Shown here in pieces: positions 21,612-27,269 of a DNA stretch of 64,000 nt. Positions within the stretch are counted from its first letter, which is position 1; each line of letters opens with the position of its first letter. The DNA is from Sulfurimonas sp. HSL-1716 (GTDB lineage: Bacteria; Campylobacterota; Campylobacteria; Campylobacterales; Sulfurimonadaceae), in NCBI RefSeq assembly GCF_039645975.1, contig NZ_CP147918.1:2108001-2172000 (forward strand), in the 5' to 3' direction. A model generated the notes under the pieces. The model was not told the origin of the DNA and did no database searches. It saw only the letters and a program-made list of their open reading frames with translations. The translations under genes were made by a program, and so were the position numbers.

Positions 21612-23912
21612 TCAGCTTCCTGTTTTTTTTGTTTCATTTAAAATAATATATTTGTTTTTACCGGACATTTTCGCTTTGTACATGGCTTGATCGGCCTGTT
21701 TGATAATTTGATCGGCTTGCAATTTATCTTTTTGCGGATACAATGTAACTCCAATACTTGCTGAAACATTGATAGGGCAATTTTCAATACTGACCGGCTC
21801 TGCTATAGTATTTATAAGTCTGGTTAAAAAAGGAGCAACACTTTCTTCATCTTGAATATCAACGAACAAAGCTATAAACTCATCCCCGCCTATGCGAGAA
21901 ACTGTATCGCTTTGGCGAAGCAGACTTGTCATTTTTTCAGCCAACAAAATAAGCAGTTTATCTCCAATAGTATGACCGTATGTATCATTTACCGCTTTAA
22001 ACCCATCGATATCGATGTATGCGACGGCTATCATCTGCTTTCTGCGAATTGCCTGAGAAATCGCCTGTTTCATTCTATCGGCAAACAGCATACGGTTGGG
22101 TAGATTTGTCAAAGCATCATAATGAGCACTGCGTTCAAGTTCTAGCTGCTGTAGTTTTTGTTGTGTTATATCCGTGAAAATGGAAATATAGTTTTGCACC
22201 GCTTTGTTATCATCATAAACGACGCTGATCGTAGCACTTTCAACATATTCTTCTCCATCCTTTTTACGATTCCACAACTCCCCTTTCCATACACCCTCTT
22301 TATGCAAAGTTGCCCAAAGTTTTGAGTAAAACGCTTGATCGTTACGACCGGATTTAAGGATATTTGGTTTTTTACCGAGAACGTCGGTGCGTGAGTAACC
22401 CGTTATAGTCGTAAATGCTTCATTTACATCCATGATGATATTATCTTTATCTGTAATAATAATACCCTCATGCGTATTGGTAAATACACTTGCTGAGAGC
22501 TTAAGCTTCTCTTCTGAACGTTTGCGTTCTGTTATATCGCTAATAAAGGCAAGAAGATATCCGCTTCCCCTGTATTTAATATAAGTCAGATTGATTTCGA
22601 CTGGAAAGACGGTTCCGTTTTTGTTTTGATGCATCGTAAAAACTATTTTCGAACCTTTTTGTTTGAGCTCATTCCAAAGGATTGGCAGCCGAGACTCAGG
22701 AAATTCAGGATCAATGTCAGGTATTCTCATTGATCTTAGCTCTTGTTTTGTATAGCCGAGTTGACGAACGGAACCATCGTTCACATATTTGAAAAATCCA
22801 TTTTCATCGGTCAAATACACTGCTTCATCTACTTGATCAAGGGCATATTGCATAAGTTTGAGTTCTTCTTCCGATTCTTTATCCTGCGTAATATCTCTGG
22901 CAAAGCCTACTGTTCCAAAAAGAGTTCCGGCTTTGTTCAAAATAGGGGCTTTATAGGTCTGATACCACTTTCTTTCCCCTTGCCCTTCTATAAGCTCCTC
23001 TAACTCTTTTTTTTGCAATGATGCCATAACCTCTTTATCATCGGCACGATAGGCATCTGCTAGATCTTTTGGAAAATAATCCAAATCATTTTTACCGATG
23101 AGCTCTGACGTACTTTTGACCCCGGCTGCGTTGGCAAAAGATTTATTTACAGCTAAAAAATTGCTGTTTGTATCTTTTAGCCAAATAAGAAACGGAAAAC
23201 TATCCAAAAGCGCACGCTGATAACTTTCGCTTTTTTTGAGTTCTTCTTCATCATGTCTTGATTTTGTAATGTCCGTCCCCGAGGACAAGATACCTTCTAT
23301 ATTTCCATCACTGTCTTTGACATGCTCATTATGCCACTCAATAAGTCTGATGCTTCCGTCTTTTTGCAGCAGTTTCGTTTCATATGTTCTGTAAGGTTCG
23401 ATATTCCCGCGCATAACATCTGCACACGATTCCTTGATCGATACCTGATCTTCTATAGGAATAGTTTCTTCTATCCAATTTTTACCCAGTAACTCATTTT
23501 CCGATTCGTATCCAAGAGCTTTACACAGTTCATTGTTAGCTAAGAGAATGTTAGCGTCGGTATCCAGTGCTACGATCAACGTTCCGGTAATATTCAGATA
23601 GCGAAGGGCGCGTTTTTGTGCATAATCAAGGTTGGTCTCCGTATCTTTTTGAAGAACCGTTATCCTGTTCTTTTCACTTTCCACTTCACGAAGATGACGC
23701 AACAAGAAGGCTATTAATCCAAAAACAATAAATCCGGTAATAGCAGGGATGGTAAATCCGACAATAAACAGGTTCTCATCAAAAAATACGCCGGTCAGTA
23801 TATAACTGTGAAGCGCTACCAGCAGCTCTGAAATAACGAGCGCCAATGATGTGAACAGTATGACGAATGACCAAAATCCAAGCTTGGCTAAAAAGGTAAT
23901 AATTGCATTCAT
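21612..23912 (-). CDS. Membrane PAS-GGDEF diguanylate cyclase
   Basis: A 766-residue sensor with two N-terminal membrane segments (about 10-35 and 48-70), a short coiled coil, four PAS domains (roughly 105-225, 235-345, 355-475 and 485-600, several with GSI..EWHNEHV- or YLLAFISDITER-type PAC ends) and a C-terminal GGDEF domain with intact RIGGDEF. It should make c-di-GMP in response to redox or small-molecule signals; no haem or flavin Cys is obvious. A -35/-10 promoter ends 6 bases before the ATG and there is no ribosome site, so the message may be leaderless. Confidence 0.92.
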   Translation of the reverse strand: MNAIITFLAKLGFWSFVILFTSLALVISELLVALHSYILTGVFFDENLFIVGFTIPAITGFIVFGLIAFLLRHLREVESEKNRITVLQKDTETNLDYAQKRALRYLNITGTLIVALDTDANILLANNELCKALGYESENELLGKNWIEETIPIEDQVSIKESCADVMRGNIEPYRTYETKLLQKDGSIRLIEWHNEHVKDSDGNIEGILSSGTDITKSRHDEEELKKSESYQRALLDSFPFLIWLKDTNSNFLAVNKSFANAAGVKSTSELIGKNDLDYFPKDLADAYRADDKEVMASLQKKELEELIEGQGERKWYQTYKAPILNKAGTLFGTVGFARDITQDKESEEELKLMQYALDQVDEAVYLTDENGFFKYVNDGSVRQLGYTKQELRSMRIPDIDPEFPESRLPILWNELKQKGSKIVFTMHQNKNGTVFPVEINLTYIKYRGSGYLLAFISDITERKRSEEKLKLSASVFTNTHEGIIITDKDNIIMDVNEAFTTITGYSRTDVLGKKPNILKSGRNDQAFYSKLWATLHKEGVWKGELWNRKKDGEEYVESATISVVYDDNKAVQNYISIFTDITQQKLQQLELERSAHYDALTNLPNRMLFADRMKQAISQAIRRKQMIAVAYIDIDGFKAVNDTYGHTIGDKLLILLAEKMTSLLRQSDTVSRIGGDEFIALFVDIQDEESVAPFLTRLINTIAEPVSIENCPINVSASIGVTLYPQKDKLQADQIIKQADQAMYKAKMSGKNKYIILNETKKTGS

Positions 23913-24077: not shown

Positions 24078-24153
24078 TGGTGCTCACAACTGGACTCGAA
24101 CCAGTGACTCTTACCTTGTCGAGGTAATACTCTACCAACTGAGTTATGCGAGC
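24078..24153 (-). tRNA. tRNA-Val (anticodon GAC), with C at position 33
   Basis: The minus strand folds into a full cloverleaf: 7-bp acceptor stem (GCTCGCA with TGTGAGC), D arm ACTC/GAGT with AGTTGGTA loop, 5-bp anticodon stem TTACC/GGTAA, T arm ACTGG-TTCGAGT-CCAGT, discriminator A and an encoded CCA. The anticodon loop reads TCGACAA, so the anticodon is GAC (valine codons GUC/GUU). Position 33, almost always U, is C here. All other parts look functional. Confidence 0.92.
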
Positions 24154-24220
24154 ACTTCATTAGAAGACTGAAATAATATTATATTACTACTTAAATTAAG
24201 CAAAAGCAAACAGCAATTTA

Positions 24221-24909: not shown

Positions 24910-26157
<1,248 letters not shown>

Positions 26158-26294: not shown

Positions 26295-27269
26295 ATGGCA
26301 AAAAATGATTTAATCGGCGAATCTTTATGGGATGCTTATTCCGATAAAGTTACCCGTCTTATGAATAATCCTGAACATCAGGGCGAGATTACCGAAGAGG
26401 AAGCTGCCCAGCACGGCAACAAACTTATCGTTGCCGACTTTGGAGCGGAAAGCTGCGGCGATGCCGTACGTCTTTACTGGGAAGTTGACCCTAAAACAGA
26501 TATAATCGTGAACTCCAAATTTAGAAGCTTCGGATGCGGTACGGCAATAGCGAGCAGCGACGTTATGACAGAGCTTTGTATCGGCAAAACCGTACAAGAA
26601 GCGGTAAAGATCACGAATATCGACGTTGAGTTCGCTCTGCGCGATACGCCTGATGTTCCTGCAGTTCCGCCTCAAAAGATGCACTGCTCGGTCATGGCAT
26701 ATGATGTCATCAAAAAAGCGGCAGGATTATACCTCGGTGTCGATGCTGAAAGCTTTGAAGAGGAGATTATCGTCTGTGAATGTGCGCGCGTATCTCTTAA
26801 AACTCTCAAAGAGGTCATCAGACTCAACGATCTAAAAACGATCGAACAGATAACGGACTATACGAAAGCCGGCGGTTTTTGTAAGAGCTGTATAAAACCG
26901 GGCGGTCATGAAGAGCGTGAATACTATCTTGTAGATATCTTGGCAGACACACGCCGCGAGATGGATGAAGAGAAGATGAAAGCAGCTGCCGATGCCGGTG
27001 TAGAAGGTGATTTTGCTTCTATGACGCTTGTTCAAAAGATCAAAGCTATCGATACCATCATAGACGAGAACGTCCGCCAGTTTTTGATCATGGACGGAGG
27101 GAACATGGAAGTTATCGATATTAAAGAGGGCGGCGACAACATCGATGTCTACATCAGATACATAGGTGCTTGTAACGGATGTGCAAGTTCTACCACGGGA
27201 ACCCTTTACGCGATCGAGAGCACTTTAAAAGACAAACTCTCAAGTAAAATACGTGTTCTTCCTATCTAA
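26295..27269 (+). CDS. nifU: Fe-S cluster scaffold NifU
   Basis: A modular 324-residue scaffold. The N-terminal IscU-like domain has Cys54, Cys81 and Cys131; the central [2Fe-2S] ferredoxin-like domain has Cys161, Cys163, Cys196 and Cys199; the C-terminal NFU domain has CNGC (Cys293, Cys296). All nine Cys expected from Azotobacter NifU are present. It assembles clusters from NifS-derived sulfur and hands them to apoproteins. AAGGAAA precedes the ATG. Its stop codon lies inside the perfect hairpin shared with the convergent gene. Confidence 0.96.
   Translation: MAKNDLIGESLWDAYSDKVTRLMNNPEHQGEITEEEAAQHGNKLIVADFGAESCGDAVRLYWEVDPKTDIIVNSKFRSFGCGTAIASSDVMTELCIGKTVQEAVKITNIDVEFALRDTPDVPAVPPQKMHCSVMAYDVIKKAAGLYLGVDAESFEEEIIVCECARVSLKTLKEVIRLNDLKTIEQITDYTKAGGFCKSCIKPGGHEEREYYLVDILADTRREMDEEKMKAAADAGVEGDFASMTLVQKIKAIDTIIDENVRQFLIMDGGNMEVIDIKEGGDNIDVYIRYIGACNGCASSTTGTLYAIESTLKDKLSSKIRVLPI

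Follow-up and report, generated by a model that had tools for sequence, protein, structure and literature searches.

The tRNA-Val(GAC) of Sulfurimonas sp. HSL-1716 carries a cytidine at position 33 of its anticodon loop, where U33, which makes the U-turn, is taught as invariant. From the sequences compared here, C33 in tRNA-Val(GAC) looks like a real alternative build of the anticodon loop that recurs across many bacterial phyla and is linked to the anticodon. We hold with moderate confidence that the host gene is the working and sole valine tRNA of the GUC/GUU type, and a fixed natural loop variant in which C33 keeps the loop open. An isoacceptor that has repeatedly lost U33, often with a change of base 38, is a natural experiment on the requirements at position 33, and the loops UUGACAU and UCGACAA make a pair for side-by-side testing. 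For annotators, C33 in Val(GAC) should not signal an error or a pseudogene.

ARAGORN identified a single tRNA in the window (the whole stretch of 64,000 nucleotides that was analysed), a complete tRNA-Val(GAC) on the minus strand (24078-24153) with an encoded CCA (24080-24078). The acceptor, D, anticodon and T stems all pair, and the discriminator base is A73. The anticodon arm (24111-24127, minus strand) reads TTACC-TCGACAA-GGTAA. Its seven-base loop (24116-24122, minus strand) is U32 C33 G34 A35 C36 A37 A38, with C33 at 24121 on the minus strand (G on the plus strand). The earlier note had described both the C33 in the loop TCGACAA and an intact gene with encoded CCA; the minus-strand sequence bears out the former and the paired stems the latter. 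Valine identity is set by A35, C36 and A73, and all three were read from the sequence of the host tRNA. The gene has the intact cloverleaf and the GAC anticodon of a functional bacterial tRNA-Val(GAC), and C33 in place of the U33 expected in elongator tRNAs. U33 is not defining for tRNA-Val(GAC), because C33 recurs within the same isoacceptor. None of the marks of a pseudogene (broken stems, a missing CCA, another intact copy) was found. A 33-base motif taken from the anticodon and T arms has a single occurrence in the window and is absent from all 100 shuffles. When the window was searched with the last 24 bases of the tRNA, allowing up to three mismatches, the gene itself was the only match.

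The host genome, a single contig of 2,257,566 bases, gave 45 tRNA hits. The list of tRNA-Val genes that the earlier note had called for includes two Val(UAC) genes, both with U33, and just one Val(GAC) gene, with no spare copy of it among the 45 hits. Position 33 is U in 36 of the 38 distinct host tRNA sequences and C in two, Val(GAC) and Glu(UUC). In the 36 long open reading frames (ORFs) of the window (≥200 codons, picked mechanically), the valine codons are GUC (33 %), GUA (30 %), GUU (23 %) and GUG (14 %). GUC is the commonest, and tRNA-Val(GAC) therefore serves common codons. The idea of a near-silent extra copy finds no support in a sole Val(GAC) gene facing 56 % of the window's valine codons (GUU plus GUC). 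A sequencing or assembly error, a pseudogene or a spare copy is a very unlikely account of the C33 gene. A block upstream of the gene, TTTTGCTTAATTTAAG (24190-24205, minus strand), is a possible promoter; it is identical in five other members of the genus and similar in the remaining two, and this conservation suggests that the tRNA is expressed. A scan for a sigma-70 consensus promoter and a terminator at the gene found no site.

C33 and A38 are present in the Val(GAC) gene of all eight genomes of the genus, and the seven relatives match the host gene at 72-74 of 76 bases. C33 is fixed genus-wide in an otherwise normal elongator tRNA, as is expected of a natural C33 elongator. In the anticodon arms of relatives, the stem changes in pairs with C33 and A38 unchanged. 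Within the host family, a pattern allowing either pyrimidine at position 33 matched 106 of 228 genomes, with C33 in 88 and only U33 in 18; these counts were read by eye, and the 88 include one genome (G181, 8 % contamination) that carries both C33 and U33. The misses are partly caused by the pattern, which genes with a D loop one base shorter escape. Ten intact genes of this shorter type were fetched from family genomes, nine with C33 and one with U33; the anticodon stem varies among them by paired changes around a constant TCGACAA. Judged from this conservation and from the paired stem changes in relatives, maintenance of the host-type tRNA-Val(GAC) by selection is well supported.

The neighbourhoods of these genes bear on how C33 arose. 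In other genera of the family, genes with U33 (L102, L103, L117) and genes with C33 (L104, L105, L109, L114, L116, L118) adjoin the same two ORFs, which align over approximately 335 and 145 residues; L110, a C33 gene on a shorter stretch, adjoins the second of them. C33 is therefore most simply read as a substitution in place, and not as the addition of a gene. In the host genus (L101), the ORFs within approximately 1.5 kb of Val(GAC) match none of the neighbours in the other genera (L102-L118).

A scan for C33 Val(GAC) with one genome per species returned at least 119 loci. All 119 listed loci were called as Val(GAC) with C33 by ARAGORN, and the 44 other tRNAs in these loci all have U33. Eighty listed record titles span over a dozen phyla, although many of the records are metagenome bins whose taxon labels may be wrong. 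They include Planctomycetota, Actinomycetota, Pseudomonadota, Spirochaetota, Bacillota, Chlamydiae, Chloroflexi (Anaerolineales), Verrucomicrobia, Elusimicrobia, Nitrospirae, Patescibacteria, Cyanobacteria, Aquificales and others. We also drew phylum samples evenly and searched them with a pattern admitting U or C at position 33; many genomes gave no match, and the fractions are valid for pattern-fitting genes only. The Bacillota (57 of 149 genomes matching, 61 rows) and the Pseudomonadota (29 of 140, 36 rows) had C33 in the seed genome only. In the Actinomycetota (28 of 139 genomes, 28 rows), C33 was found in 26 rows, one of them the seed, and U33 in two. The Planctomycetota (94 of 119 genomes, 100 rows) were divided between C33 (56, one of them the seed) and U33 (44). 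In the sample of the host phylum, 165 of 200 genomes matched the Val(GAC) pattern. Among the matches listed from outside the family, C33 was seen by eye in at least five (G454, G514, G419, G450, G495), and the remaining ones listed have TTGACAT. C33 is indeed unusual among tRNAs overall, but the earlier view that it is very rare does not hold for the GAC anticodon in several bacterial groups, the Bacillota and Pseudomonadota samples being the exceptions.

A separate difference was seen in the Planctomycetota at stem bases 30-31, which are GC or GG in 56 of 56 C33 genes and GC in 5 of 44 U33 genes. This may reflect shared ancestry or a further coupling.

Position 33 does not vary alone. We pooled the rows from the host family and the Bacillota, Planctomycetota, Pseudomonadota and Actinomycetota samples, excluding the four seeds and the host phylum sample. 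With U33 (n=160), base 38 is U in 150 rows, C in six, G in three and A in one. With C33 (n=170), it is A in 142, C in 25 and U in three. These counts were typed from the listings and are uncorrected for kinship, and 90 of the 170 C33 rows come from one family. A Fisher test on them likewise takes no account of kinship, and its value is not to be taken as a probability. Outside the host family (by subtraction), A38 accompanies C33 in 52 of 80 rows and U33 in 1 of 141. In the sequences sampled, bases 33 and 38 of Val(GAC) are coupled, and the main loop types are U33 with U38, or C33 with A38 or C38. Among the 119 listed scan loci, base 38 is A in 52, C in 52 and U in 15. Since C38 and U38 are also found with C33, C33 permits A38 but does not require it.

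The link to the anticodon was observed with a C33 pattern that left the anticodon free. In 40 genomes chosen as carriers of C33 Val(GAC), it gave 41 matches, all of them GAC, and the same pattern with U33 gave 441. The pattern covers one D-arm type and would miss tRNA-Glu(UUC), and the restriction to GAC holds among the tRNAs covered. As a control, the C33 pattern was run on viral contigs, where it gave at least 122 matches in 120 listed loci. These span 29 anticodon triplets, with GAC in 11 of 122, and ARAGORN agreed on the register in 79 of the first 82. The spread of the viral matches shows that GAC is not imposed by the pattern, and we rejected pattern bias as an explanation for finding GAC alone. 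The same matches count against C33 being confined to GAC everywhere. The commonest anticodon among the viral C33 tRNAs (L238-L357) is GAT, with 30 of the 122 listed matches; some of these contigs may hold cellular DNA.

The second C33 tRNA of the host genome lies outside the window. It is a tRNA-Glu(UUC) with the loop ACTTCAT and a four-base variable loop (G000:C1:1517117-1517192; L041:418-493), and its neighbours in the tRNA cluster are Lys, Asp and Val(UAC). We fetched 26 clusters of this kind from the family; the Glu gene is present in 24, and its loop is ACTTCAT in 24 of 24 (genera g1, g2, g10, g12 and g16). Pair 30-40 is U-G, U-A or C-G in these genes and is always paired. The host's other Glu(UUC) sequence has U33 with U32 and U38.

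We folded the 17-base anticodon arm with ViennaRNA, which models neither the U-turn nor base modifications. The predicted probability of pairing between bases 33 and 37 is 0.67 for UUGACAA, 0.00 for UCGACAA and 0.01 for UUGACAU. For the Glu(UUC) arm with A32-U38, it is 0.75 if base 33 is U and 0.00 with C33. From these predictions we infer a mechanism that we consider reasonable, with known counterexamples, in which C33 would act by keeping the loop open. Bulky modifications of A37 belong to tRNAs for codons starting with U or A and are expected to be absent from those reading G-initial codons, as both host C33 tRNAs do. A37 of tRNA-Val(GAC) is thus probably free of a bulky modification. If U32 and A38 were combined with U33, two extra pairs (32-38 and 33-37) could form and leave a three-base loop that would hide the anticodon. 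C33 would be unable to pair with A37; the loop would stay open and the anticodon presentable, presumably by a U-turn-like bend that C33 would support less strongly than U33. The proposed zipping of loops with U33 and A38 would explain why the loops found are mainly U33 with U38 or C33 with A38 or C38. Glu(UUC), with A32-U38 and C33, would be a second case that fits prevention of zipping.

The counterexamples come from the same genome. The host tRNA-Gly(GCC) (UUGCCAA) and tRNA-Ala(GGC) (CUGGCAG) both combine a Watson-Crick 32-38 pair with A37 and have predicted zipping probabilities of 0.67 and 0.81, respectively. Both are nevertheless U33 tRNAs, and on these predicted folds they plainly break the simple zip rule. 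The occurrence of C33 with C38 (25/170 pooled rows; 52/119 scan loci) or U38 (3/170; 15/119) also counts against the model, as such loops have no zipping to block. One could argue, in the spirit of tRNA tuning, that a weakened loop might suit the all-G/C anticodons of Gly(GCC) and Ala(GGC). Work from the Uhlenbeck laboratory is said to have found the loop bases of tRNA-Ala(GGC), with A32-U38, fitted to its anticodon. This tRNA would resemble the host Val(GAC) in having a Watson-Crick 32-38 pair matched to the anticodon, yet it retains U33. A wider proposal, which we put forward only tentatively, is that position 33 is an evolutionary switch. tRNAs that read G-initial codons without a bulky A37 modification could combine a Watson-Crick 32-38 pair with C33 to keep the loop open (Val GAC, Glu UUC), and those whose anticodon consists of G and C only (Ala GGC, Gly GCC) would keep U33 and a zipped loop that weakens decoding; C33 and U33 would have interchanged repeatedly in bacteria.

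A different account, possible but in our judgment rather unlikely, is relaxed constraint. Given a modified wobble U, tRNA-Val(UAC) would read most GUN codons, and the auxiliary Val(GAC) would drift from U33 to C and then at base 38. The host genome does contain two U33 tRNA-Val(UAC) genes, and laboratory U33C mutants in other systems retain some function. Against drift, other host G34 tRNAs whose codon box is also served by a U34 tRNA (Ala GGC, Thr GGT, Gly GCC) retain U33, the C33 found in the 40 genomes with one pattern is confined to GAC, and all eight members of the genus have kept it. Nor would drift be expected to leave U33 with A38 nearly absent.

Less likely still is tuning, in which C33 weakens or slows the decoding of GUC and GUU to a useful level. 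Uhlenbeck is reported to have described tRNAs as tuned through loop bases 32 and 38, and Saks and Conery (2007) are said to have found loop bases in bacteria that depend on the anticodon; the latter would favour this account. The impaired function of yeast U33C mutants, as given in the available parts of two papers (PMC3664417, PMC11096365), also speaks for it. However, GUC and GUU are common codons in the window, and tuning alone leaves the association of C33 with A38 unexplained.

Editing of C33 to U33 in the mature tRNA seems to us highly improbable. C-to-U editing of tRNAs occurs in other lineages, but we know of no such editing of bacterial tRNAs, and its product here, UUGACAA, has the combination seen in just 1 of 160 U33 rows. 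We give practically no credence to a dying gene or to the sequencing or assembly error raised by the earlier note, for which nothing was found in favour and against which stand C33 in all eight genus members and in records from many phyla, the ARAGORN calls at 119 of 119 listed loci and the paired anticodon-stem changes in relatives.

The variant preferred here, an open C33 loop in a working elongator, can be set beside known tRNAs. The ordinary bacterial tRNA-Val(GAC) (TTGACAT) has the same anticodon and cloverleaf, and the same locus in other genera of the family, but U33 and U38 in place of C33 and A38. According to the accessible part of PMC7668247, tRNA-Cys(GCA) of the Sulfolobales carries C33. 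It is likewise an elongator with a natural, lineage-specific C33; unlike the host gene, it is archaeal, restricted to one clade and of another anticodon, and that part of the source describes no coupling to base 38. The eukaryotic initiator tRNA-Met also has a natural, conserved C33 (PMC9023262, in the portion available), but it is an initiator and not an elongator. Further natural exceptions to U33 are tRNA-ProX with A33 and a mistranslating tRNA-Ser with G33 (PMC11415595, in the portion available), which have another base and are linked to mistranslating tRNAs. As far as the available excerpts go, U33C in yeast tRNA-Gln increased pseudohyphal growth (PMC3664417), and U33C in yeast SUP4 abolished ochre suppression, which was linked to Elongator modification of U34 (PMC11096365). 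Such impairment counts against the preferred reading, although the latter effect would not concern a G34 tRNA such as Val(GAC). Engineered tRNAs are treated in the accessible part of PMC11231383. Our literature search, in sources available in part, found no publication dealing with C33 in Val(GAC) or Glu(UUC) of bacteria; the likeliest survey, Saks and Conery 2007, was outside its scope, and we do not claim that the variant is unpublished.

Several further observations concern the surroundings of these genes. Downstream of the host tRNA, on the same strand, lies a multi-PAS diguanylate cyclase with a GGDEF domain (21612-23912). A NifS-like class-V aminotransferase (24928-26157) and a NifU-like protein (26295-27269; NifU_N, BFD and NifU domains) are encoded nearby, and are probably an iron-sulphur cluster pair. 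Copies of 50 bases from the 3' half of C33 Val(GAC) were found in five genomes (L394-L398, in G110, G143, G135, G104 and G105), preceded by similar AT-rich sequence; the copy in G143 lies approximately 10 kb from the full gene. These copies resemble attachment sites at which elements have integrated. At two of the five sites, ARAGORN calls chimeric Val(GAC) tRNAs.
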